Part shown: in pieces, positions 471 to 12,807 of the stretch | How the letters are laid out: each line of letters starts with the position of its first letter | Position numbering within the stretch: position 1 is the stretch's first letter | Origin: Clostridiaceae bacterium | GTDB taxonomy: Bacteria > Bacillota > Clostridia > Acetivibrionales > DUMB01 | Length of the DNA: 34,229 nucleotides | NCBI GenBank assembly: GCA_012840535.1 | Contig: DULF01000088.1 | Coordinates: 1-34,229 of the forward strand | Direction of reading: 5' to 3' | Translations under genes and position numbers: made by a program | The notes under the pieces: model-generated | What the model saw: the letters and a program-made list of their open reading frames with translations, nothing else | Databases searched by the model: none | Told to the model about the DNA's origin: nothing

Positions 471-2672
471 TTGGCAGGATCACGTATAATGATAAAAAGA
501 AGGCTTTTAGCCCTGCTTATTTTTTTCACATTGGTTGTAACAGGACTTTTGGGAAAAGTTGCATATATTCAGATAGTCCAGGGGGAAGAGCTGCAGAAAA
601 TGGCTTTTATGCAACAGAATTCTTCACGTACAATCAGCCCGAGAAGGGGAACAATTTATGATAGAAACGGAAAGGAACTTGCAATAAGCGCATCTGTAGA
701 TACGATAAGCGCTTTTCCAAGTGAAATCAAAAACTCAGACAAGTCACCAGAAGCCATTGCAGAAAAGCTTGCTGAAATCCTGGAAATGGATAAGGAAGAT
801 GTGTATAAGAATATTACAAAAAACGTTCGTTACGTGCTGATTAAAAGAAAAATTGAAAAAGATGTTGGAGATAGGGTAAGACAGTGGATCCAGGAAGAAG
901 GTATTGAGGGAATTTACATAGATGAGGATACCAAAAGGTATTACCCCGGACGGAATCTTGCCGCTCATGTTATAGGGTTTACCAATGTGGACAATGAGGG
1001 GCTTTACGGAATCGAAAAGGTCATGGATAAATACCTTAAGGGCACTCCAGGCAGAATACTAAGTGAAGTTGACGTTATTGGCCGTGAGCTGCCGTTTAAG
1101 ACTGAGAAACGTATAGATCCACAGGACGGACTTAATGTAGTATTGACAATTGATGAAACAATACAGTATTTTGCCCAAAAAGCAATTGAAAAAGCTGTTG
1201 TTGACAACAAGCTTCAAAAAGGCGCTGTAGCCATTGTCATGGATCCGAGAAACGGTGATATCCTGGCAATGGTTTCATATCCCGATTATGACTTGAATAA
1301 CCCATATGCTCCACCGCCAGGCCAGGATCCAAGTACATGGATAGGAAGCAAAAGCAGTGAAAACGTCAAGCTTCTAAGCGAGACCGTATGGAGGAACAAG
1401 GCTATTCAGGATACTTATGAGCCTGGTTCCACATTTAAAGTAATAACATCTGCCGCTGCGCTGGAAGAAGGACTGGTAAAGCCGGAAGATATGATAAGCG
1501 ACCAGCCTGTGCAGATAGGAAAGTGGACGATACGTTCATACAGCAGTTACAGGTACCAGGGGCAGGTATCTTTCAGAACCGGCGTGTATAAATCGGTTAA
1601 CCCGGTATTTGTAAGACTTGCCCAGAAAATGGGAATTGAAAAGTTTTACCAATATGTAAGGGCTTTCGGATTTTATGACAAGACCGGAATTGATCTTGAA
1701 GGGGAAGCCAGAAGTATTTTCCAGGCCAAGCCGGTAGAAGTGGATATGGCGGTAGCATCCTTTGGACAGAGGTTTACTATTACTCCAATACAACTCATTA
1801 CAGCTTACACTGCAATTGCAAACGGTGGCAAAATGATGAAACCTCGCTTGGTTAAGGAGCTTACTGATCAGGAAGGCAATATCATAAAGAAATTTGAACC
1901 TGAAGTAATCAGGACTGTTATATCAAAGCAGACATCTGATACACTCAGAGAAATACTGGAGGGAGTTGTATCCGAAGGTACAGGTAGAAACGCATATGTA
2001 AAGGGCTACAGAGTGGCAGGAAAGACCGGTACCTCACAGACAACTCACGGGAGTGATGTATATACAGCTTCATTCTGTGCATTTGCACCGGCTGATAACC
2101 CTGTCATATGCGTCCTTGTCGCTCTGTTCGACCCGAGAGGAGATTCATATATGGGCGGTGCAATAGCTGCTCCTGTAGCAGGAAAAATCATAGAGGATAC
2201 TCTTGAGTACCTTCAAGTTGAGAGAAGATATACTGAGAAGGATATGGAGGAAATCCGGGAAGAGGTTTATGTACCTGATGTCAGGGATAAAACCGTATCG
2301 GATGCAATCAAGGAGCTGGCTGAACGTGATCTCCGTTACCGCATTGAAGGGGACACGGAAAACAAAGAAGCTATTGTCGTAGAACAGACACCAAAACCGG
2401 ATGCAAGCATTCAAAAGAAATCCGTAATTATACTGTATACTTATAAACCTGAGGAAGAAATTAAGGTTAAAGTTCCTGATGTATTGAATATGTCTGTAGA
2501 TGATGCTACTGAGATTCTCCGTCAGGCTGGCCTTAATATAAAGGTAATAGGTTCGGGAACTGCATACAGGCAGTCGGTTGTGCCCGGCGAAGAAGTTACT
2601 GCTGGTAAAGTAATAGAAGTTGAGTTTAAGCACCTCGAAGTGGAAGACGGAGGAGAAATAGTCCTGGATTAA
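471..2672 (+). CDS. spoVD: Septal/sporulation penicillin-binding protein (PBP2x/SpoVD type) with two PASTA domains
   Basis: High-molecular-weight class B PBP, a DD-transpeptidase that cross-links peptidoglycan at the septum or in the spore cortex. A TTG start at 471 is chosen because GGGAGGA ends 7 nt upstream. An N-terminal membrane anchor (about residues 9-35) is followed by the PBP dimerisation domain beginning at RGTIYDRNG (59-67). The transpeptidase motifs are complete: S320-T-F-K323, S375-V-N377 and K518-T-G520. Two PASTA repeats follow (about 600-658 and 667-720). PASTA domains are typical of SpoVD and of PBP2x. Many Firmicutes have separate pbpB and spoVD here; only one copy is present, so it may serve division (ftsI role) as well. 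The vegetative versus sporulation role cannot be settled from sequence. 733 residues is normal. Confidence 0.93.
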   Translation: MAGSRIMIKRRLLALLIFFTLVVTGLLGKVAYIQIVQGEELQKMAFMQQNSSRTISPRRGTIYDRNGKELAISASVDTISAFPSEIKNSDKSPEAIAEKLAEILEMDKEDVYKNITKNVRYVLIKRKIEKDVGDRVRQWIQEEGIEGIYIDEDTKRYYPGRNLAAHVIGFTNVDNEGLYGIEKVMDKYLKGTPGRILSEVDVIGRELPFKTEKRIDPQDGLNVVLTIDETIQYFAQKAIEKAVVDNKLQKGAVAIVMDPRNGDILAMVSYPDYDLNNPYAPPPGQDPSTWIGSKSSENVKLLSETVWRNKAIQDTYEPGSTFKVITSAAALEEGLVKPEDMISDQPVQIGKWTIRSYSSYRYQGQVSFRTGVYKSVNPVFVRLAQKMGIEKFYQYVRAFGFYDKTGIDLEGEARSIFQAKPVEVDMAVASFGQRFTITPIQLITAYTAIANGGKMMKPRLVKELTDQEGNIIKKFEPEVIRTVISKQTSDTLREILEGVVSEGTGRNAYVKGYRVAGKTGTSQTTHGSDVYTASFCAFAPADNPVICVLVALFDPRGDSYMGGAIAAPVAGKIIEDTLEYLQVERRYTEKDMEEIREEVYVPDVRDKTVSDAIKELAERDLRYRIEGDTENKEAIVVEQTPKPDASIQKKSVIILYTYKPEEEIKVKVPDVLNMSVDDATEILRQAGLNIKVIGSGTAYRQSVVPGEEVTAGKVIEVEFKHLEVEDGGEIVLD

Positions 2673-2709
2673 AACGAAGGGCGGTTTGGAAAATCACTTA
2701 GCAGATAGT

Positions 2710-2738
2710 TTTAAAATTTGATGGAAGAGTGGTATAAT
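2710..2738 (+). promoter_or_regulatory. Probable sigma-A promoter with extended -10, upstream of murE
   Basis: A consensus -10 TATAAT (2733-2738) is preceded by the extended element TGG (2730-2732) and, 17 bp upstream, by a weak -35 TTTAAA (2710-2715). Transcription would start near 2745, inside the heptad repeat, giving murE its own promoter inside the cluster with a leader of about 150 nt. Inferred from sequence only. Confidence 0.5.
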
Positions 2739-2739
2739 A

Positions 2740-2823
2740 CAGAGAATAGAGAACAGAGAACAGAGGACGAAGAATAGAGAGCAATGAATGGGGAATGGAG
2801 AACAGAGAACAGAATATAAAGAA
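2740..2823 (+). repeat. Degenerate 7-bp tandem repeat (about 12 units)
   Basis: Twelve consecutive heptamers close to CAGAGAA run in unbroken 7-nt phase. In order they are cagagaa, tagagaa, cagagaa, cagagga, cgaagaa, tagagag, caatgaa, tggggaa, tggagaa, cagagaa, cagaata, taaagaa. The strand is almost pure purine apart from the first base of most units. The repeat lies between the predicted promoter and the murE ribosome binding site, so it would form most of the murE 5' leader. The same heptamer recurs at 28825-28934. Confidence 0.85.
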
Positions 2824-2895
2824 ATAGGGGACAAAAGGTGAAGTATAGATAGAGACAAGATTATATAGCGAATTTTATACTGATGGAGGTGCTGA

Positions 2896-4359
2896 ATGTT
2901 ACTTTCTGCATTAATAAAAAACTTAAACCCGATAAGCATTAAGGGATGTACTGATATTGAAATCAAAAGCATTGCATATGATTCAAGAAGGGCCGAAAAA
3001 GACTCATTATTTGTGTGTATTGAGGGTACGGTTGTTGACGGCCATAAGTTTATTGCAGATGCTATTGTAAAAGGAGCAAAAGCATTATTGGTCCAGAAGG
3101 ATGTTGAAGTTCCCGACGGTGTAACGGTAATCCAGGTTGATAACACCCGTTATGCTTTAGCTTGTGTATCCGCAGCTTTTTATGGTCATCCGTCAAATAA
3201 ATTCAAATTGATAGGGATTACAGGGACAAAGGGAAAGACAACCACTACATATATGATAAAGTCCATACTTGAAGCAGGAAACCACAAGGTTGGGCTTGTA
3301 GGGACAATAGCAAATTATATAGGCAATGAAATGCTTCATACAGAAAGGACTACTCCTGAGTCTTTGGATCTTCAATCGTTATTTTCCGAAATGGTTGCAA
3401 AAAATGTAGACAGTGTTGTAATGGAGGTATCTTCCCAAGGGCTTGCGCTAAACAGGGTAAGCTGCTGTAATTTTGATATTGGAGTTTTTACCAATCTTTC
3501 CAGGGACCATATTGGTCCGCGGGAGCACAAAGATATTGACGATTACTTGAACGCAAAGATAAAATTATTTAAAATGTGCAAAAGAGGCCTGGTAAATATA
3601 GACAGTGAATATGCGAAAAGGGTGATTGAAGAGGCGGAATGCGATACATTAACTTATGGAATAGAACAGGACGCCGATATCAGGGCAGAAAATATTAAAA
3701 AGAATCCCGACAGTGTTGAGTTTGATGTAAAAACCCCATGGATGGCCGGTAGCCTCAAGGTGGGTATTCCAGGAAAATTTACCGTGTATAACGCTCTTGC
3801 TGCTGTCGGGGTATGCGGAATGCTGGGAGCCTCCTTTGAAAGCATAAAATCAGGTCTTGAAAAAGTCAGTGTTCCCGGAAGAGTAGAAGTTGTGGATATT
3901 GGCAAAAATTATACGGTCATAATCGACTATGCCCATACCCCCGATAGCTTAGAGAATGTGCTTACTACCATAAAAGGTTTCACGGATAACAGACTTATAT
4001 GTCTTTTCGGTTGCGGCGGTGACAGAGACAGGACAAAAAGGTCGATTATGGGCCGTATATCCGGGCAAATAGCGGACTTTACCATAATAACCTCTGACAA
4101 CCCAAGGTCTGAAGAGCCAGCTGCAATTATAAAAGAGATAGAAGAAGGAATAAAAATGACAAATGGGAAATATATAACTATTGTTGACAGGCGGGAAGCA
4201 ATAAAATATGCCCTCCAAAATGCGCAAGCGGGAGATGTCATTGTTCTGGCTGGAAAAGGTCATGAGACCTACCAGACTTTTAAGGATAAAACAATACATT
4301 TCGATGAAAGGGAAGTAGTGAGGGAAGTGCTCAAAGAGCTGGAGGGCAATTCCCTGTAG
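2896..4359 (+). CDS. murE: UDP-MurNAc-L-Ala-D-Glu:meso-DAP ligase
   Basis: Cytoplasmic ATP-dependent amide ligase that adds the third residue of the peptidoglycan stem peptide. The ATG start is 5 nt after GGAGGTG. The ATP-binding loop GITGTKGKT spans 107-115, and a candidate carbamylated lysine lies near K221 (YLNAKIKLF). The motif DNPR at 401-404 is the signature of enzymes that select meso-diaminopimelate rather than lysine, so this cell should have DAP-type peptidoglycan. The 487-residue length is normal. The gene follows the transpeptidase after a 223-nt gap with its own predicted promoter and is 12 nt from murF, so it heads the murE-murG run. Confidence 0.97.
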   Translation: MLLSALIKNLNPISIKGCTDIEIKSIAYDSRRAEKDSLFVCIEGTVVDGHKFIADAIVKGAKALLVQKDVEVPDGVTVIQVDNTRYALACVSAAFYGHPSNKFKLIGITGTKGKTTTTYMIKSILEAGNHKVGLVGTIANYIGNEMLHTERTTPESLDLQSLFSEMVAKNVDSVVMEVSSQGLALNRVSCCNFDIGVFTNLSRDHIGPREHKDIDDYLNAKIKLFKMCKRGLVNIDSEYAKRVIEEAECDTLTYGIEQDADIRAENIKKNPDSVEFDVKTPWMAGSLKVGIPGKFTVYNALAAVGVCGMLGASFESIKSGLEKVSVPGRVEVVDIGKNYTVIIDYAHTPDSLENVLTTIKGFTDNRLICLFGCGGDRDRTKRSIMGRISGQIADFTIITSDNPRSEEPAAIIKEIEEGIKMTNGKYITIVDRREAIKYALQNAQAGDVIVLAGKGHETYQTFKDKTIHFDEREVVREVLKELEGNSL

Positions 4360-4371
4360 TGGAGGTTATAT

Positions 4372-5745
4372 ATGCAAATGTTAAAATGCAAGGAAATAGT
4401 TGAAGCAACTAACGGAAAACTGGTATCAGGGAACATGGAAACTGTGTTTGCCGGTATATGTACCGACTCAAGAAAAATAAACAAAGGTGATATTTTTATT
4501 CCTATTATCGGTTCCAATTTTGACGGGCACGATTTTATAGATGCCGCTTTACAGGGAGGAGCCCTGGGAACTGTTACGGACAGGGATATTTACGTATCAG
4601 GAGATGCTGTTGTTATAAAGGTTGAAAACACAACGAGGGCTCTTGGTGATATTGCGGCATATTACAGGCAGAAATTCCACATCCCGTTTGTTGGAATAAC
4701 CGGAAGTGTTGGAAAGACCAGCACGAAGGATATGGTTGCAAGCGTACTGGAGCAAAAATTCAATGTGCTTAAAACAGAAGGAAATTTCAACAATGAAATC
4801 GGACTTCCGCTGACACTTTTAAAGCTTGAAAGCTACCATGAAGCCGGAGTTATTGAGATGGGTATGAGCAACTTTGGCGAAATCAGCCGCTTAAGTTCAA
4901 TTACCAGACCTGACATTGTCATAATTACGAACATTGGAATGTCCCATATTGAAAAACTCGGCTCCAGGCAGAACATATTAAAAGCGAAGATGGAGATTTT
5001 TGATGGCTTAAATAAAAATGGTTTAGTAATATTGAACGGAGACGATAATTTGTTATATGGCTTAAAAGGACTACTACCCTTTAGAACGGTATTTTACGGA
5101 ATGGACGAAGGTATGGATTATCACGCATATAATATAGAAACAGCCGGTGAAAAAGGCACACGTTTCAGGATAACAATAGGAAATGACGACTGTGAGGTTT
5201 TTGTGCCTGTACCCGGAGTACATAATGTTTATAACGCCCTTGCCGCTATAGCTGCAGGCGTTGAATTAAAAGTGCCGGTGGATAAAATAATAAAGGGCAT
5301 TGAAGCATTTGTTCCGGGTAAAATGAGATTGAATATAATATCAAGCCGCGGTATGAAAATCATAAATGATGTATATAATGCAAGTCCGCATTCCATGAAG
5401 GCGGCAATTGACGTACTGAAGGAAATTTCAGGTGATTCCAGGAAAATTGCGGTACTTGGTGATATGCTTGAAATGGGCGAGTGGGCTTCGGATGCCCATG
5501 CAGAAGTCGGTGAATATGCTTTTCTGAGTAACATTGACTACATAATAACAGTCGGAGAAAATGCAAAAAATATAGCAACAGGTTCCATAAATGCCGGTAT
5601 GAAGCCTGACAGGATTTTTTCCTTTAGAAACAATAAAGAATCCATATCTTTTCTGAAAGGTTTTGTCAAGCCGGGAGACACTATACTTGTTAAAGGCTCC
5701 CGCGGCATGAAAATGGAGGAAATTGTAGAAAGCCTGTTGGAATAA
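4372..5745 (+). CDS. murF: UDP-MurNAc-tripeptide:D-alanyl-D-alanine ligase
   Basis: Cytoplasmic Mur ligase that adds D-Ala-D-Ala to the UDP-MurNAc tripeptide, completing the pentapeptide that is the substrate of MraY. The ATP loop GITGSVGKTS lies at 108-117, and the central motif NDVYNASPHSMKAA near residue 333 is characteristic of MurF. The ATG at 4372 follows GGAGG by 5-6 nt; a second in-frame ATG two codons later is possible. The gene sits 12 nt after murE and 50 nt before mraY. At 457 residues it is of usual length. Confidence 0.96.
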   Translation: MQMLKCKEIVEATNGKLVSGNMETVFAGICTDSRKINKGDIFIPIIGSNFDGHDFIDAALQGGALGTVTDRDIYVSGDAVVIKVENTTRALGDIAAYYRQKFHIPFVGITGSVGKTSTKDMVASVLEQKFNVLKTEGNFNNEIGLPLTLLKLESYHEAGVIEMGMSNFGEISRLSSITRPDIVIITNIGMSHIEKLGSRQNILKAKMEIFDGLNKNGLVILNGDDNLLYGLKGLLPFRTVFYGMDEGMDYHAYNIETAGEKGTRFRITIGNDDCEVFVPVPGVHNVYNALAAIAAGVELKVPVDKIIKGIEAFVPGKMRLNIISSRGMKIINDVYNASPHSMKAAIDVLKEISGDSRKIAVLGDMLEMGEWASDAHAEVGEYAFLSNIDYIITVGENAKNIATGSINAGMKPDRIFSFRNNKESISFLKGFVKPGDTILVKGSRGMKMEEIVESLLE

Positions 5746-5795
5746 ACTTTGCCACTAAAGATGCATCATAAGGTTAACGTTAGGAGAGAGTGTGT

Positions 5796-6791
5796 TTGAA
5801 CGGGTTATTTGATATTTCAGAACATGTTGCTGCTTTTATAATAACATTTATTCTGGCTCTGATTGCCGGACCTATATTAATTCCGGCTTTAAGAAGGTTA
5901 AAGTTTGGCCAGACCGTGAGAGACGACGGGCCTTCTACTCACCTGAAAAAAACCGGGACACCGACGATGGGGGGAATTATTTTTCTCATTCCATTGTTAT
6001 TAGTGTCTCTTATTTATGCGCGGCAGTACCCACAGATACTTTCATTGTCTTTTGCAACTTTAGGTTTTGGATTGGTTGGTTTTGTTGATGATTTTATCAA
6101 GGTAAAGAGGAGAAGCAAGGACGGATTGTTCTGGAATCAAAAGATGCTGGGACTGCTAATAATTGCCGTAATTTTTGCCTTGCATGTAACTTATGGAATG
6201 AAACTCGGCACGGACATTATCATCCCGTTTAAGGGAATAGATTTTACTTTTACGTTGCCGGAATGGTTTTTCATACCACTGGTAATTATTGTGCTTTTAG
6301 CATCTACAAACGCTGTTAATTTTACAGATGGACTTGACGGCCTTGCTTCCGGAGTTACACTGATAGTAATGGTATTCTTTACTATTGTGGCGATGACCAG
6401 GAATGAATGGGACGCTGTGAGGATATTCTCCTCAATAGTCGCCGGCGGATGCCTTGGCTTTCTTGCTTTCAACGCTTACCCTGCTAAAGTTTTTATGGGC
6501 GATAACGGGTCCCTGGCTCTGGGAGGGGCGGTTGGAGCAATAGCAATTATCATGAAAATGCCATGGATATTGCTCATTGTCGGCGCAGTTTATGTGATGG
6601 AGACTCTGTCTATTATTATACAGGTTGCTTATTTTAAGAAAACCGGAAAAAGAGTATTTAAAATGGCTCCTTTACATCACCATTTTGAGCTGTCAGGGTG
6701 GAAAGAGACAAAAGTTGTAGCAGTATTTTGGACGGTCACAATAGTGCTGTGCATTATTGGCTTTATTACCCTCAGGGTGAGATTTTATTGA
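5796..6791 (+). CDS. mraY: Phospho-MurNAc-pentapeptide transferase
   Basis: Integral membrane enzyme that transfers phospho-MurNAc-pentapeptide to undecaprenyl phosphate, forming lipid I. About ten hydrophobic segments are visible. The family motifs are intact: D98-D99 in GFVDDFIKV, NFTDGLDG (175-182), GDNGS (235-239) and the HHH cluster (294-296). TTG at 5796 is preferred over GTG at 5790 because AGGAGA (5782-5787) is 8 nt from the TTG but only 2 nt from the GTG. That gives 331 residues, close to the usual size. In most Firmicute clusters murD follows; here only 37 nt separate mraY from the SEDS gene, so murD must be elsewhere. Confidence 0.96.
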   Translation: MNGLFDISEHVAAFIITFILALIAGPILIPALRRLKFGQTVRDDGPSTHLKKTGTPTMGGIIFLIPLLLVSLIYARQYPQILSLSFATLGFGLVGFVDDFIKVKRRSKDGLFWNQKMLGLLIIAVIFALHVTYGMKLGTDIIIPFKGIDFTFTLPEWFFIPLVIIVLLASTNAVNFTDGLDGLASGVTLIVMVFFTIVAMTRNEWDAVRIFSSIVAGGCLGFLAFNAYPAKVFMGDNGSLALGGAVGAIAIIMKMPWILLIVGAVYVMETLSIIIQVAYFKKTGKRVFKMAPLHHHFELSGWKETKVVAVFWTVTIVLCIIGFITLRVRFY

Positions 6792-6828
6792 GGTTTCTTT
6801 AAAGTTGACGGAAGTATGGAGGTAATTA

Positions 6829-7935
6829 ATGAAAGGGAAAAAGCCTTTTGATTTTTGGATATTTATGACGGTACTCATTCTGCTTTCACTTGGTACAATA
6901 ATGGTATTCAGTGCAAGCGGACCTTATGCTTCCAACAGATACCATGATGTATATTATGTTTTAAAAAGGCAGCTCCTGTATGCAGTTTTAGGACTGATAG
7001 CAATGTTTATAACTATGAATTTTGATTATAGAAAATTGGGAAAGCTTTCCCCAATTGTACTTATTATATCCATAGTCCTCCTTGTACTTGTATTTATTCC
7101 GGGAATAGGCGGAGAAAAGAAAGGAACATGGAGATGGATAGAAATTGGTGGATTTCAGTTCCAGCCTTCTGAAATTGCCAAGTTTGCAATTATTCTGTTC
7201 TTTTCGTACAGCTTGTCTAAAAGAAGGGACCAAATTACCTACTTTTTCAAAGGTTTGCTGCCATATCTGATTATTCTTGGTATTTTTGCCGGACTGGTTC
7301 TGCTTGAACGCCATTTGAGCGCTACAATAATAATTTTGGCAGTTGCTTCTGTTATTTTGTTTGCGGCAGGAGCAAGGATAAAACATTTCATTTTGCTTGG
7401 CATTCCTGCAATAGCAGGACTTATAGTTATAATCCTGACTACAGATTATATGAGTGACAGAATTGCGTCCTATCTTTATCCTTTTGAGCATATGAGCGCC
7501 GAGGGATGGCAGACTGTACAGTCATTATATGCTATTGGTTCAGGAGGTCTTTTTGGGAGAGGTCTTGGAAGGAGCCTTCAAAAATTTCTATATTTGCCCG
7601 AGCCCCACAATGACTTTATTTTTTCGGTTTTAGCAGAAGAATTAGGCTTTGTTGGTGTTTTTGCAGTGCTAATGCTATACTTGATATTTATATGGAGAGG
7701 AATAAAAGTAGCCATGAACGCGCCTGACACGTTTGGAAGCCTGCTTGCAACGGGTATAACGTCATTGATAGCCATACAAAGTCTTTTTAATGTTGCCGTG
7801 GTAACAAATACCGTACCTCCGACAGGTGTGTCACTGCCGTTTTTCAGTGCGGGAGGAACAGCTCTTGTTGTTCTTCTGGCTGAGGTAGGCATACTTTTAA
7901 ATATATCAAAATATGCAAATTATGAGAGAATCTGA
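6829..7935 (+). CDS. ftsW: SEDS peptidoglycan polymerase FtsW/SpoVE
   Basis: Polytopic SEDS-family glycosyltransferase that polymerises lipid II at the septum with a cognate class B PBP, presumably the one encoded at 471-2672. The 368-residue protein has roughly ten transmembrane segments and the conserved GLFGRGLGRS (240-249) and PEPHNDFIFSVLAEELG (257-273) region. D262 corresponds to the essential aspartate of the large extracellular loop. ATG at 6829 has GGAGG upstream. Its place between mraY and murG matches spoVE of Bacillus subtilis, so a sporulation-specific role is a real alternative to ftsW. The stop is 11 nt before murG. Confidence 0.92.
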   Translation: MKGKKPFDFWIFMTVLILLSLGTIMVFSASGPYASNRYHDVYYVLKRQLLYAVLGLIAMFITMNFDYRKLGKLSPIVLIISIVLLVLVFIPGIGGEKKGTWRWIEIGGFQFQPSEIAKFAIILFFSYSLSKRRDQITYFFKGLLPYLIILGIFAGLVLLERHLSATIIILAVASVILFAAGARIKHFILLGIPAIAGLIVIILTTDYMSDRIASYLYPFEHMSAEGWQTVQSLYAIGSGGLFGRGLGRSLQKFLYLPEPHNDFIFSVLAEELGFVGVFAVLMLYLIFIWRGIKVAMNAPDTFGSLLATGITSLIAIQSLFNVAVVTNTVPPTGVSLPFFSAGGTALVVLLAEVGILLNISKYANYERI

Positions 7936-7946
7936 GGTGGAATAAA

Positions 7947-9050
7947 TTGAAAGTCATAATTGCAGGCGGTGGTACTGCCGGGCATATTAATCCGGGAATT
8001 GCCATAGCCAAGCAAATCAGGAAAGAGTATCCCGGTTCGGAAATTTTGTTTATAGGAACCAAAAGGGGAATGGAAACAAAGCTGGTTCCCTATGAAGGAT
8101 TTGAAATTAAGTTTATAAGAGTCAAGGGGTTCAGACGCAAAATATCGTTGGATACCCTTATTTGGCTAAAGGAACTGTTCCTTGGGATTTGCGAAGCAAG
8201 AAAAATAATCAAGCAATTCAGACCTGACACAGTAATCGGAACCGGTGGATATGTTTGCGGGCCTGTTGTGTTTGTAGCGTCAATGATGAATATACCTACC
8301 CTTATACATGAGCAGAACGCTTTTCCAGGAGTCACAAACAGAATATTGTCCCGTTTTGTTGATGCTGTAGCTATAAGTTTCAGAGAATCAGAAAGGTATT
8401 TCAGGAGTAAAGAAAAGCTTTATTATACCGGCAACCCTGTAAGGCAGGAAATATTGAAGGCAGATAAGATGTCAGCGAGAGAAAAGCTTGGCATAGATAT
8501 GAAAAAACCATTGGTTGTAGTTGTCGGCGGAAGTCTTGGAGCAGAGAGAATAAACGACACTATAGTTGAAATGCTGAAAAAACGGTCAGGTCAATATAGT
8601 TTCAATATGATATTTGCGACGGGCAATGGCCAATATGACAGGGTGATGCAGCTTTTGCAGGGCGTAAAAACGCCAAATGTAGATATAGTGCCGTACATAT
8701 ATGACGCGGCAAACGTATATGCTGCTGCGGATCTGATAGTGTGCAGGGCAGGGGCGATAACGTGCAGCGAGCTGACAGCGCTTGGCGTACCTGCAATCAT
8801 GATACCGTCACCTAATGTGGTTGCCAACCACCAGGAATACAATGCAAGGGCTTTGGAGAAAAACGGCGCAGCAGTAGTAATACTGGAAAAAGACCTTAGC
8901 GAAGAAATCTTATATAACCAGATAATGAGATTGTTAGGAGATAAGAAGCAGCTTCGTAAGATGGCCGAAAACTCTAAAAAATCAGGTATTACCAATTCTG
9001 CTGAAAAAATCTGCTGGATAATAGACAAACTTGTTTTCGGTGGCAAATAA
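7947..9050 (+). CDS. murG: UDP-GlcNAc:lipid I N-acetylglucosaminyltransferase
   Basis: Peripheral membrane GT28 glycosyltransferase that adds GlcNAc to lipid I to make lipid II. The N-terminal GGGTAGHINPG (7-17), the central VVGGSLGAERIND segment and the C-terminal VCRAGAITCSELTALGVPAI region that binds UDP-GlcNAc are all present. The start is TTG at 7947, with GAGGTGG (7934-7940) 6 nt upstream overlapping the end of ftsW, which suggests translational coupling. The 367-residue length is typical. A hairpin terminator starts about 30 nt after the stop, so this is the last gene of the intact wall-synthesis run. Confidence 0.96.
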   Translation: MKVIIAGGGTAGHINPGIAIAKQIRKEYPGSEILFIGTKRGMETKLVPYEGFEIKFIRVKGFRRKISLDTLIWLKELFLGICEARKIIKQFRPDTVIGTGGYVCGPVVFVASMMNIPTLIHEQNAFPGVTNRILSRFVDAVAISFRESERYFRSKEKLYYTGNPVRQEILKADKMSAREKLGIDMKKPLVVVVGGSLGAERINDTIVEMLKKRSGQYSFNMIFATGNGQYDRVMQLLQGVKTPNVDIVPYIYDAANVYAAADLIVCRAGAITCSELTALGVPAIMIPSPNVVANHQEYNARALEKNGAAVVILEKDLSEEILYNQIMRLLGDKKQLRKMAENSKKSGITNSAEKICWIIDKLVFGGK

Positions 9051-9078
9051 CCCTGATTATGTGTATGTAACACTTTTT

Positions 9079-9121
9079 AACACCTCGCATAATATGGTAA
9101 TGTAGTGCGAGGTGTTTTTTT
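9079..9121 (+). terminator. Intrinsic terminator after murG whose 3' arm contains the murA ribosome binding site
   Basis: An 11-bp perfect stem (9079-9089 with 9106-9116, 16-nt loop) runs into seven T (9115-9121), and the murA ATG begins at the next base. The only good Shine-Dalgarno for murA, GAGGTG (9109-9114, 7 nt from ATG), is inside the 3' arm. The hairpin would therefore both terminate transcription and bury the ribosome binding site. Confidence 0.85.
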
Positions 9122-9544
9122 ATGAGCAGAATAATTGTAACAGGTGGGCAAAAACTAAAAGGTGAATTATCAATAGAAGGTTCAAAAAATGCCGTCCTGC
9201 CTATCCTGGCGGCTACTGTCCTTAATGGTGGCATTAATGTAATAAAGAATTGTCCAAAATTAAAAGATGTGCAAATTGCTATTGAAATATTAAAGAGGCT
9301 TGGGTGCAAAGTACATATAGAAGGAAATGTAGTAACGCTTGATTCCTCGACGCTTAATAAAACGGAAGTACCTGAGGACCTGGCGACTGAAATGAGGTCT
9401 TCGATCCTGTTTTTAGGTCCTATGCTTGCCCGTTGCAAAAAAGTGACTATAAGCTACCCGGGGGAGTGTGTAAGTTTATTGACACAGCCTGTAGCTGTTC
9501 CTTCACATGCTGGCTGTATCCTGCTTTATCTCGTGCCTTTTTAG
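9122..9544 (+). pseudogene. murA: Truncated UDP-GlcNAc enolpyruvyl transferase (murA fragment)
   Basis: Residues 1-114 are a clear MurA N-terminus: the K22-N23 pair in SKNAVLPILA (21-30), the PKLKDV segment (45-50) and the MRSSILFLGPMLAR segment (91-104). MurA makes UDP-GlcNAc-enolpyruvate from UDP-GlcNAc and PEP, the committed step of peptidoglycan synthesis. Intact enzymes are about 417 residues; this frame stops at 140. Similarity ends inside the catalytic loop. The expected PGGC-x-IG motif reads PGEC (113-116) and then becomes unrelated sequence to the stop at 9542. The active-site cysteine position is nominally kept, but the second half of the inside-out barrel is absent and is not found downstream. 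The product should be inactive. Many Firmicutes have two murA genes, so another copy is inferred. Confidence 0.88.
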
Positions 9545-9655: not shown

Positions 9656-9734
9656 AAATGTATTGCAAATTATTACAACTGAAATAATGATAGTAATAAA
9701 AAATTTTAGCTGATTCAGGAGAGAGGTGGTTTTG

Positions 9735-10757
9735 TTGGGTTGTCTTGATACCCTGAAGGAACTTACGCAGTATACTGCGGTTTCAGGACGGGAATACGAG
9801 TTTGCGGCTGTCTTGAAAGACAAGTTTTCTGAAATATGTGACAGCGTTGAAATAGATAAGTTCTATAATGTTATAGCCCTTAAAAAGGGGATGGGAATTA
9901 ATGGGCCCCGTATAATGGTTCTCGCCCATTTGGATGAAATAGGTTTTCTCGTAAAAAGTATTGATAAGAATGGTTTTATTAAATTCACAAATGTCGGGGG
10001 CATAGATGCAAGAATCCTTTTGTCTCATGAGGTAATTATACACGGAAAAAAGGACATTACCGGGGTTATAGGAGCCAAACCGCCGCACATGCTTGAAGCT
10101 GATGAAAAAAAGAAAGCGGTAAAAATTGATGAATTGTATATTGACACCGGAATGGACGCAAAGGAATTGAAAAAATATGTATCAATCGGTGACGCCATTA
10201 CTTTAAAATCCCATCCGTTTTTCCTTAAAGATAACAAATATAGTTCGAAGTCGGTTGATAACAGGTGCGGAGTAACAGTATTGATTGAAACCGCCAATGA
10301 ACTTAAAAAATTAAAGCACAAACCTGATGTGTATTTTGTGGCTACAGTGCAGGAAGAACTGAATCTTGCGGGAGCGAGAATAACTTCTTTTAATATTGAA
10401 CCTGATATTGCCATTGTTGTAGACGCATGCCATGGTGATGTTCCCGGTGCTCCAAAAGAAGTAGTTTTTCCTCTTGGGAAAGGTCCCGCAATAGGTATTG
10501 GTCCAATACTTAACAGAGAATTAACCGAAAGGATGCTTGATACGGCAAAGGAAAACAATATTCCGCATCAGGTGGACGTGGAACCGGGCAGCACCGGTAC
10601 GGACGCATGGGCAACGCAAGTTTCAAAATACGGCATACCAACAGTACTTGTTTCTATACCTGTGAGGTATATGCACACATCAATTGAGACTGTACACGCA
10701 AATGACATAAAGTATGCTGGAAAATTAATCTCCCGTTTTATTGCGGAAAGGGTGTGA
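9735..10757 (+). CDS. M42 family metallo-aminopeptidase (TET type), paralogue 1
   Basis: Cytoplasmic dinuclear zinc or cobalt aminopeptidase of the M42 family (glutamyl aminopeptidase/endoglucanase-M annotation group), normally a dodecameric tetrahedral particle that trims oligopeptides. Numbered from TTG 9735, the metal and catalytic positions are H65, D67, D175, E207-E208, D230 and H314, a complete set compared with archaeal TET2. The loop SVDNRCG carries DNR where the two neighbours have DDR. The start is uncertain: GTG 9726, TTG 9732 and TTG 9735 are all in frame, and the last has the best spacing (5 nt) from AGGTGG at 9724-9729. It is followed 6 nt later by a second paralogue. The family is not cellulolytic despite old names. 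Confidence 0.92.
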   Translation: MGCLDTLKELTQYTAVSGREYEFAAVLKDKFSEICDSVEIDKFYNVIALKKGMGINGPRIMVLAHLDEIGFLVKSIDKNGFIKFTNVGGIDARILLSHEVIIHGKKDITGVIGAKPPHMLEADEKKKAVKIDELYIDTGMDAKELKKYVSIGDAITLKSHPFFLKDNKYSSKSVDNRCGVTVLIETANELKKLKHKPDVYFVATVQEELNLAGARITSFNIEPDIAIVVDACHGDVPGAPKEVVFPLGKGPAIGIGPILNRELTERMLDTAKENNIPHQVDVEPGSTGTDAWATQVSKYGIPTVLVSIPVRYMHTSIETVHANDIKYAGKLISRFIAERV

Positions 10758-10763
10758 TTTATA

Positions 10764-11828
10764 TTGCTTGATATTCTGAAAGAACTAACTGATATAAACG
10801 GGGTATCCGGGGACGAAGGCGATGTGCGGGAATACATAAAAAAACAAATCGAAGGATATGTCGATGAGGCCAGGGTGGACCGGATCGGAAATCTAATTGC
10901 ATATAAAAAAGGAAAAACATCCGGCTTTACCGTAATGCTTTCTGCACACATGGATGAGGTGGGTTTTATTGTTACCGGATTCAGCGAAAACGGAAACATC
11001 AAATTCCAGCCTGTAGGAGGAATTGATGAGAGGATTCTTCCCGGGAAGCGCGTGCTTGTTGGAAAAAGGAAAATACCTGGAATAATCGGATCAAAACCTG
11101 TACACCTTTTGGAAAAGGAAGAAAGGGAAAAAGTAGTAAAAATAAAAGATATGTATATTGATATAGGATGCGATAGTAAGGATTGTGCCGAAGATTTAGT
11201 CAAATTAGGGGACTATGCTGTTTTCTTCAGTGAATTTACCGAGCTTGGTAATAATACTGTTAAAGCAAAAGCTTTGGATGACCGGGCAGGATGCGCTGTT
11301 CTAATCGAAATACTGAGGCAAAGATTTGACTTTGATTTATATGCATGTTTTACAGTACAGGAAGAGGTGGGACTGAGAGGCGCGGAAGTTGCGGCATACT
11401 CAATCAGGCCGGATATTGCGGTTGTTATAGAAGGTACTACATGTTCCGATGTACCGGGAATCAGCAGGCAAAACTTTTCTACCGAGCTTGGGAAAGGAGC
11501 TGCCTTGGCCATTATGGACAGGACATCTTATTACGACAAGGAGCTTGTGGATTTCATATATAACACTGCAAAGAAAAACAACATAGACGTCCAGTTCAAG
11601 CAGACGACGACAGGCGGAAATGATGCGGGAAAAATACAGACTTCAAGAACCGGTGTAAGGGTTGCGGCAATATCCGTTCCATGCAGGTACATACATTCGC
11701 CTGTTTCAATAATGAATATAAAGGATTTTGAAAGCTGCTCAAAACTGGTTGCAGCAACATTGAAAGAATTGGAAAGCAGCGTAGATATGTTCAAAAAAGC
11801 AGGAAATGGAGGAGAGAAAAATGTTTGA
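10764..11828 (+). CDS. M42 family metallo-aminopeptidase (TET type), paralogue 2
   Basis: Second of three adjacent M42 aminopeptidases, 354 residues. Visible active-site positions are H62 and D64 (SAHMDEVGF), D172 (KALDDRAG), E200-E201 (TVQEEVGLRGAE), E223 where the neighbours have aspartate, and H311 (CRYIHSP). Glutamate is tolerated at the fourth position in this family, so activity is expected. The start is TTG 10764 with AAGGGTG about 9 nt upstream. Its last 8 nt overlap the start of the third paralogue, which implies coupled translation. The three proteins are clearly homologous but well diverged, so the triplication is old or the copies have separate specificities. Confidence 0.93.
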   Translation: MLDILKELTDINGVSGDEGDVREYIKKQIEGYVDEARVDRIGNLIAYKKGKTSGFTVMLSAHMDEVGFIVTGFSENGNIKFQPVGGIDERILPGKRVLVGKRKIPGIIGSKPVHLLEKEEREKVVKIKDMYIDIGCDSKDCAEDLVKLGDYAVFFSEFTELGNNTVKAKALDDRAGCAVLIEILRQRFDFDLYACFTVQEEVGLRGAEVAAYSIRPDIAVVIEGTTCSDVPGISRQNFSTELGKGAALAIMDRTSYYDKELVDFIYNTAKKNNIDVQFKQTTTGGNDAGKIQTSRTGVRVAAISVPCRYIHSPVSIMNIKDFESCSKLVAATLKELESSVDMFKKAGNGGEKNV

Positions 11829-12807
11829 TCTGGTGAAAAAGCTTACAGGTATATTTGGAGTTTCAGGCAATGAAGAGGAAATCAGGGAAGTCATAAAAAG
11901 CGAAATAACCGGGTATGTAGATGATATATATGTTGACCCTATTGGCAATCTTATTGCGGTAAAAAAAGGAACCGGGAAGAAAATCATGCTGGCGGCTCAC
12001 ATGGACGAAATAGGAATAATGGCTACATTTATCGATGATGATGGCTTTATACGTTTTTCAAATGTGGGCTGGGTTTCGCAGTATTACGCTCTGGGTCAGA
12101 GAGTAAAGTTTAAAAACGGTGCAGTTGGGGCGGTGTTTTATGAGGAAAAGCTTGACGAAATGAAGAACCTCAAGTTATCAAAGATGTATATTGATATAGG
12201 AGCCAAAAACAGGGAAGATGCTGAAAAGAAAGTCAGAATTGGTGACACTGCCTGCTTTGTCGGAGACACGGTTCAAGAAGGAGACATGATTATTTCAAAA
12301 GCGCTGGATGACAGGTCTGGCTGTGCAGTGCTAATTAAAGTATTGAAAGAAATGCCTGAAACTGAAAATGAACTGTATTTTGTTTTTACCGTCCAGGAGG
12401 AGTTGGGACTTAGGGGTGCAAAAACTTCTGCATATAGAATAATGCCTGATATGGCAATTGCAGTTGATGTAACGGATACGGGGGATACTCCCGAATGCGA
12501 ACTTATGGAAGTAAAATGCGGTGGAGGTCCTGCAATAAAAATTAAGGACAGGTCAATTATGGCACATCCTGATGTAAAGCGGCTTTTGGAGGAGAGTGCC
12601 CGTGAACTTGGAATTCCATACCAGTACGAGGTTCTTGAAAAGGGCGGAAGCGACCCAGGTGCAATACATCTTACAGGAGGAGGAGTACCTTCAGGCGCTA
12701 TATCAATACCCTGCAGATATATTCACAGCCCTGTGGAAACGGTCAACATCAATGATCTCGAAAATGCGGCAAAACTGCTTAAGAAATGCATAGCAGCAAA
12801 AATGTGA
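11821..12807 (+). CDS. M42 family metallo-aminopeptidase (TET type), paralogue 3
   Basis: Third M42 aminopeptidase of the run. ATG 11821 is chosen because GGAGGAGA (11808-11815) lies 5 nt upstream and because the family begins at this point; an upstream in-frame ATG at 11806 has no spacing for that ribosome site. From 11821 the metal and catalytic set is H60, D62, D163, E193-E194, D216 and H302, complete. It has 328 residues, slightly shorter than the other two. It overlaps the second paralogue by 8 nt (ATG before the upstream TGA), so the three genes form one operon. Hetero-oligomer formation with the neighbours is possible and is an inference. Confidence 0.93.
   Translation: MFDLVKKLTGIFGVSGNEEEIREVIKSEITGYVDDIYVDPIGNLIAVKKGTGKKIMLAAHMDEIGIMATFIDDDGFIRFSNVGWVSQYYALGQRVKFKNGAVGAVFYEEKLDEMKNLKLSKMYIDIGAKNREDAEKKVRIGDTACFVGDTVQEGDMIISKALDDRSGCAVLIKVLKEMPETENELYFVFTVQEELGLRGAKTSAYRIMPDMAIAVDVTDTGDTPECELMEVKCGGGPAIKIKDRSIMAHPDVKRLLEESARELGIPYQYEVLEKGGSDPGAIHLTGGGVPSGAISIPCRYIHSPVETVNINDLENAAKLLKKCIAAKM

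Follow-up and report, generated by a model that had tools for sequence, protein, structure and literature searches.

The question raised by this locus is why a gene for MurA, an essential-type cell-wall enzyme, breaks off exactly at its catalytic loop. The locus lies in a stretch of 34,229 nucleotides from a Clostridiaceae bacterium (GenBank assembly GCA_012840535.1, contig DULF01000088.1), henceforth called the window, which corresponds to contig C71 in a draft genome (3.19 Mb, 240 contigs; G000 in locus labels, e.g., G000:C222 and G000:C65). An open reading frame (ORF) of 140 aa at positions 9122–9544 starts as MurA, matching residues 1–117 of TIGR01072 with 120.7 bits (cut-off 392.7), departs from the family at the PGGC loop, which reads PGEC here, and then runs into a stop codon. 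A preliminary description of the window had correctly recognised the N-terminal 114 residues as MurA interrupted at the catalytic loop, and had taken the break for a recent event. The analysis points to a different answer: this murA, i.e., the copy of the division and cell wall (dcw) cluster, is probably rebuilt by programmed recombination in the sporulating mother cell from two halves ending in putative attL and attR sites. The short ORF consists of two parts:

9122..9462, forward strand: murA 5′ half (dcw copy), codons 1–114, ending two bases into the first Gly codon of the PGGC loop; TIGR01072/PF00275 match, under purifying selection in relatives
9463..9544, forward strand: non-MurA read-through tail of the short ORF; length and sequence vary among relatives

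The missing 3′ half was located by searching the genome with PF00275, which returned five places: the N-part in the window and contigs C60, C107, C26, and C222. At C222:14720–15622, a 318-codon open frame without stops reads KVTHPGGCEIGPRPIDL... and matches profile positions 107–417, exactly the part missing in the window; the open frame as a whole was placed at C222:14720–15658, and the murA 3′ part at C222:14738–15661. Directly 3′ of it follow divIB (ftsQ), a small basic protein gene (sbp), ftsA, and ftsZ; hence, the dcw cluster is cut inside murA. In a relative with an intact murA (G037), murG-murA-divIB-sbp-ftsA-ftsZ are contiguous, with sigE close behind. When the window and C222 were joined at a shared GG, 420 codons in frame resulted, which restore the PGGC loop and score 543.6 bits for TIGR01072 (halves alone, 120.7 bits for N and 418.7 bits for C), above the equivalog cut-off for MurA (UDP-N-acetylglucosamine 1-carboxyvinyltransferase). 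The statement of the preliminary description that the missing 280 codons are not downstream holds, M42 peptidase genes being there instead. The second murA copy that it had postulated is present as an intact MurA on C60 (424 aa, 605 bits); C107 and C26 encode more distant EPSP-type proteins.

The split is conserved across the order. Among 58 genomes (Acetivibrio/Ruminiclostridium relatives, including Acetivibrio mesophilus N2K1, Anaerobacterium chartisolvens DSM 27016, and Ruminiclostridium cellobioparum subsp. termitidis CT1112), 46 have a short dcw murA, eight a full-length one, and four no match. All 46 are split at the same codon, and they span more than 20 genera and include complete single-contig genomes. 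The short forms end a few to about 100 residues past the loop in unrelated tails, and the C-half is located elsewhere. In complete genomes, the distance between the halves is 10–12 kb (G004, G027, G032, G039), 92 kb (G028), or 254 kb (G035), and in G003 the halves lie about 529 kb apart on opposite strands. The ratio of nonsynonymous to synonymous substitution rates (dN/dS) is 0.015–0.17 for both halves in split pairs, i.e., strong purifying selection, similar to the intact-murA pairs that could be computed (0.056 for the N-part, 0.096 for the C-part). A recent break is contradicted by these relatives, which carry the same short form under selection, an observation that the preliminary description itself had named as one that would refute its reading. 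No in-frame ATG, GTG, or TTG lies between the preceding stop and the loop in 16/26 C-halves, so the C-half is not translatable alone. Outside the order, murA is cut at the same loop in the Oscillospiraceae metagenome-assembled genome SIG427 (G060; L249, L295). There, polA follows the N-half, an arrangement shared with several families of the order, and the C-half lies on the other strand within the same contig; the split may predate the order. The murA tree was too poorly resolved for counting independent gains and losses, and no description of a split murA was found in the literature searched.

The N-half ends and C-half starts of 26 genomes were aligned on the central GG, which places the following features in the window:

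9436..9487, forward strand: attL-like recombination site, about 52 bp around GG; in 26 genomes its arms match the attR-like site by complementarity over ±25 nt
9461..9462, forward strand: GG at the centre of the site, candidate crossover dinucleotide; attL and attR agree here in 26/26 genomes
9463..9487, forward strand: attP-side arm of attL, GGAGTGTGTAAGTTTATTGACACAG; contig C222 carries the partner arm, 5′ of the C-half

Taken as its reverse complement, the arm 5′ of the C-half agrees with that 3′ of the N-half up to position 25, and agreement falls to background from position 26. Within genomes, arm agreement was 16.6/26 vs 14.75 with partners permuted between genomes (standard deviation 0.37; 0 of 20000), and shuffled arms gave 7.3/26. 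In G038, the two arms, taken from different contigs, form the near-perfect palindrome CCTGTGCCCGAAAAGTTACGCACCCG|GG|TGGGTGCGTAACTTTTCGGGCACATA. The attP of serine integrases is about 50 bp long and symmetric about a central dinucleotide (PMC5595907), and the murA ends show just this anatomy, i.e., a dyad-symmetric attP of about 50 bp and an identical central dinucleotide, as is characteristic of large serine recombinase sites. Judged from their sequences, the ends of the halves are an attL and an attR, whose arms would together make up a serine-integrase attP. MurA coding stops after the GG at 9461–9462 and the site is shaped like an attP; accordingly, the “E” of PGEC and all beyond it belong to the attP-side arm; the catalytic loop is not mutated, its remainder being supplied by the C-half. 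An exact search for the att sequences in viral contigs gave no match.

A matching recombinase is encoded elsewhere in the chromosome. The 531-aa product of G000:C65:10548–12140 is the sole PF07508 protein of the window’s genome and a large serine recombinase by its domains (PF00239, PF07508, and PF13408), with R20, S22, and an SRLGR motif invariant in the catalytic domain; its top NCBIfam match is XisF, below the XisF cut-off. Orthologues (50% identity or more, whole or themselves split) occur in 44/46 split vs 0/8 intact genomes (Fisher p 4e-8, phylogeny ignored). The gene lies between a block encoding a formyl-tetrahydrofolate cycloligase and a CPBP protease on one side and a YegS-type kinase gene and spoIVA on the other; the upstream block is largely retained in relatives, the downstream neighbour being either spoIVA or a phosphoglycerate-mutase-like gene. 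This conserved neighbourhood indicates a vertically inherited, fixed location, unlike that of a mobile element’s integrase. As sigK is intact in the window’s genome, the recombinase has no skin-like target there. In many relatives (G005, G010, G011, G018, G027, G032, G034, G036, and others), sigK is split in a skin-like manner.

In most genomes, a basic ORF of 36–50 aa lies between a promoter motif and the recombinase (in L096 at about 5330–5480). It has no Pfam match and no significant PHROGs match, its dN/dS is about 0.23 in the one pair with estimable dS, and it is the best candidate for the recombination directionality factor (RDF). A further conserved protein of about 104 aa without Pfam or NCBIfam match (L096:4901–5266, reverse strand) is encoded divergently from the recombinase in many relatives (57–73% identity). 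The recombinase gene itself is in two parts, cut near residue 135–141, in G018, G027 (C1:2509297–2525158), G028 (C1:64814–103309), G032, and G036, and in G019 its N-part only was found. A different large serine recombinase is encoded beside these breaks, and in G027-type genomes the break has the core ATGGTACAACGAGC with complementary arms; in G004 and G005, which belong to the same genera as genomes with a split recombinase, the gene is whole. Separately, at L144 (G029:C503:5663–8637) the murA N-half is followed by a different recombinase (37–40% identity), and the arms there do not match the C-half of G029, as if a second element occupied the same site.

By gene content (names read from sequences), the two halves are separated by ordinary chromosomal DNA, and a prophage or an integrative and conjugative element was discarded as an explanation. 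Genes for an extracytoplasmic function sigma/anti-sigma pair, polA, coaE, a lytic transglycosylase, and aroF follow the N-half in several families, and murT-gatD precede the C-half. The recombinase gene lies outside the interval in 6/7 complete genomes and inside only in G035, and the halves are on opposite strands in G003 and G060. Of the properties of a gene-intervening element, the locus thus has the split gene with two selected parts and the flanking att sites; it has neither the recombinase inside nor mobile intervening DNA that is removed by excision. Joining would delete the intervening genes (or invert them in G003), which would make it unsuitable in a dividing cell and harmless in a terminal mother cell.

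Promoter motifs bear on the timing. Two elements precede the 5′ half in the window:

9069..9096, forward strand: sigmaK-like promoter AACA-N15-CATAATATG directly upstream of murA
9109..9114, forward strand: murA Shine–Dalgarno sequence GAGGTG; kept in relatives

The motif AACA-N15/16-CATANNATR occurs upstream of murA in 30/37 genomes (0.31 expected), including all eight intact genomes and the window, and we take it to fit sigmaK promoters. Their gap is 14–16 nt (PMC517825). Genomes with a split and with an intact gene share the motif, which suggests that murA of the dcw cluster belonged to the mother-cell genes already before the split arose. In 12/23 genomes (0.009 expected), GGACA-N23-CATAT precedes the recombinase operon; GGACAA resembles a SpoIIID site and CATATAT a sigmaE −10 element. 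A strict scan for sigmaE −35/−10 elements before the recombinase gave nothing above chance. In Bacillus subtilis and Clostridioides difficile, respectively, spoIVCA and the RDF gene of skin are under sigmaE and SpoIIID (PMC517825, PMC5025042).

The proposed sequence of events is as follows. The dcw murA would be stored in the chromosome in two halves, each ending in one of the sites (attL, attR) of a domesticated large serine recombinase, and vegetative MurA would come from the intact murAA-type copy beside spoIID. During sporulation, the recombinase would be made in the mother cell from the sigmaE/SpoIIID-like promoter, together with the proposed directionality factor of about 45 aa, and would act on both sites at the shared GG, whereby the intervening DNA would be deleted or inverted. 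The halves would then be joined in frame to the 420-codon murA, the cluster murG-murA-divIB-sbp-ftsA-ftsZ would be restored, and murA would be read from its own sigmaK-like promoter to supply extra MurA for spore cortex precursors. We give even chances to a broader view, in which this is a rearrangement other than element excision: a domesticated, trans-acting recombinase, inherited vertically across the order and perhaps of greater age, removes or inverts ordinary chromosome on a scale of tens to hundreds of kb in the mother cell so that murA and the division cluster are rebuilt, in some species by a two-step cascade via a recombinase that is itself in halves.

Several observations weigh against programmed rebuilding in the mother cell. 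Arm complementarity is weak in G026, G021, and G031, and G029 has none; the usual recombinase is missing from two split genomes, G029 and G011; and the co-occurrence of split and recombinase is not independent of phylogeny, with one well-supported independent pair and five at most. A sigmaK-like motif within 160 nt is lacking in seven genomes (five from the Ruminiclostridium-type family f4), the promoter motifs were picked out after the sequences had been looked at, and the coarse GGACA/CATAT pattern is genome-wide no commoner than a reversed control. The genomes are static snapshots, and they showed neither a joined murA nor an attP circle nor an inverted chromosome. Since sites, recombinase, and selection are what the genomes display, and timing rests on promoter motifs and the spoIVA neighbourhood in some genomes, the same system could work outside a mother-cell programme, as a reversible switch, a stress-triggered rearrangement in growing cells, or a rare population variant. 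This is unlikely, as joining by deletion would cost G027-type genomes polA and coaE and G035 a stretch of 254 kb, losses that a dividing lineage could scarcely survive, and as the sigmaK-like promoter precedes murA irrespective of the split. An ancient scar, i.e., long-separated halves with disused sites and fragments kept for another reason, would agree with the lack of observed recombination and with the intact MurA paralogue beside the split copy in the window’s genome and relatives. It is nevertheless quite improbable in view of dN/dS values far below 1 for both halves across genera, non-coding arms conserved out to 25 nt, C-halves without start codons, and a retained recombinase with invariant catalytic-domain residues.

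Separately made N- and C-polypeptides that assemble into a working MurA would explain why both halves are conserved and why the N-half has a promoter motif and a Shine–Dalgarno sequence; the many C-halves without a start before the loop, the N-tails of random length and sequence, and the conserved att arms, which would be left unexplained, make such a split enzyme very improbable. A recent pseudogene or an assembly junction might be suspected in a 240-contig draft and is hardly tenable any more, being already refuted by the same split in complete genomes and in 46/58 species; of the assembly or rearrangement junction considered in the preliminary description, the assembly error is ruled out thereby and a rearrangement junction of a kind stands. 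Joining at the RNA or protein level, by a split intein or by trans-splicing of a fragmented intron of group I or II, has a negligible probability: the 5′ break reads GTGTG, like the start of a group II intron, but neither side of the break has an Rfam intron match, and hence the intron RNA domains expected at both ends were not found, and what follows the Cys is a short stretch without conservation, unlike an intein.

Programmed rebuilding of murA has its closest counterpart in skin, which likewise splits a gene, sigK, by serine-recombinase att sites (recombinase SpoIVCA in B. subtilis; CD1231 with the RDF CD1234 in C. difficile), and in which the recombinase or RDF is under sigmaE and SpoIIID and rejoining takes place in the terminal mother cell (PMC517825, PMC5025042). 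Unlike skin, the target here is murA, the recombinase is encoded elsewhere in the chromosome, the split is conserved across an order, and the halves are separated by ordinary chromosomal DNA whose length varies widely and which is inverted in some genomes. Sporulation-associated genes are also split by serine-recombinase att sites in the cases of SPbeta in spsM, gin in gerE, vfbin in spoVFB, and yin in yabG, with reconstitution during sporulation shown for spsM and gerE. In contrast to the murA system, SPbeta, gin, and vfbin (prophages, defective prophages, and the mobile gin) carry the recombinase inside (PMC4191935, PMC5595907), and yin is reported to do so as well (PMC10747680). The murA system would be a further, new form of sporulation gene rearrangement. 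The nifD, fdxN, and hupL elements of heterocyst-forming cyanobacteria would share with it a programmed rearrangement in a terminally differentiated cell; unlike the murA system, they are excised elements in different genes and hosts.

If the proposal is true, many clostridia, Acetivibrio and Ruminiclostridium included, keep an essential-type cell-wall enzyme and the order of a core division cluster disassembled in the germ line and rebuild them only in a doomed cell. Sporulation recombination would then not need a tamed prophage, housekeeping genes could sit in the discarded DNA, and the genome of the mother cell would be literally disposable. Storage in halves also explains why annotation pipelines would call murA broken, and the system offers a new serine recombinase whose sites are known, along with a candidate RDF.

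The 5′ half is flanked in the window by the following genes:

471..9050, forward strand: upstream dcw cluster with a penicillin-binding protein gene (FtsI/SpoVD type), murE, murF, mraY, ftsW/spoVE, and murG; ORFs, named from sequence and dcw order
9726..12807, forward strand: three tandem M42-type peptidase genes 3′ of the murA 5′ half; ORFs in ordinary chromosomal DNA, no recombinase

Directly 5′ of the murA start, an inverted repeat AACACCTCGCA...TGCGAGGTGTT at 9079–9117 overlaps the sigmaK-like −10 element and the Shine–Dalgarno sequence. A reading of this repeat as a terminator was rejected, given that overlap and a terminator scan that found none. Inverted repeats like it are also present in G001, G029, and some intact-murA genomes.
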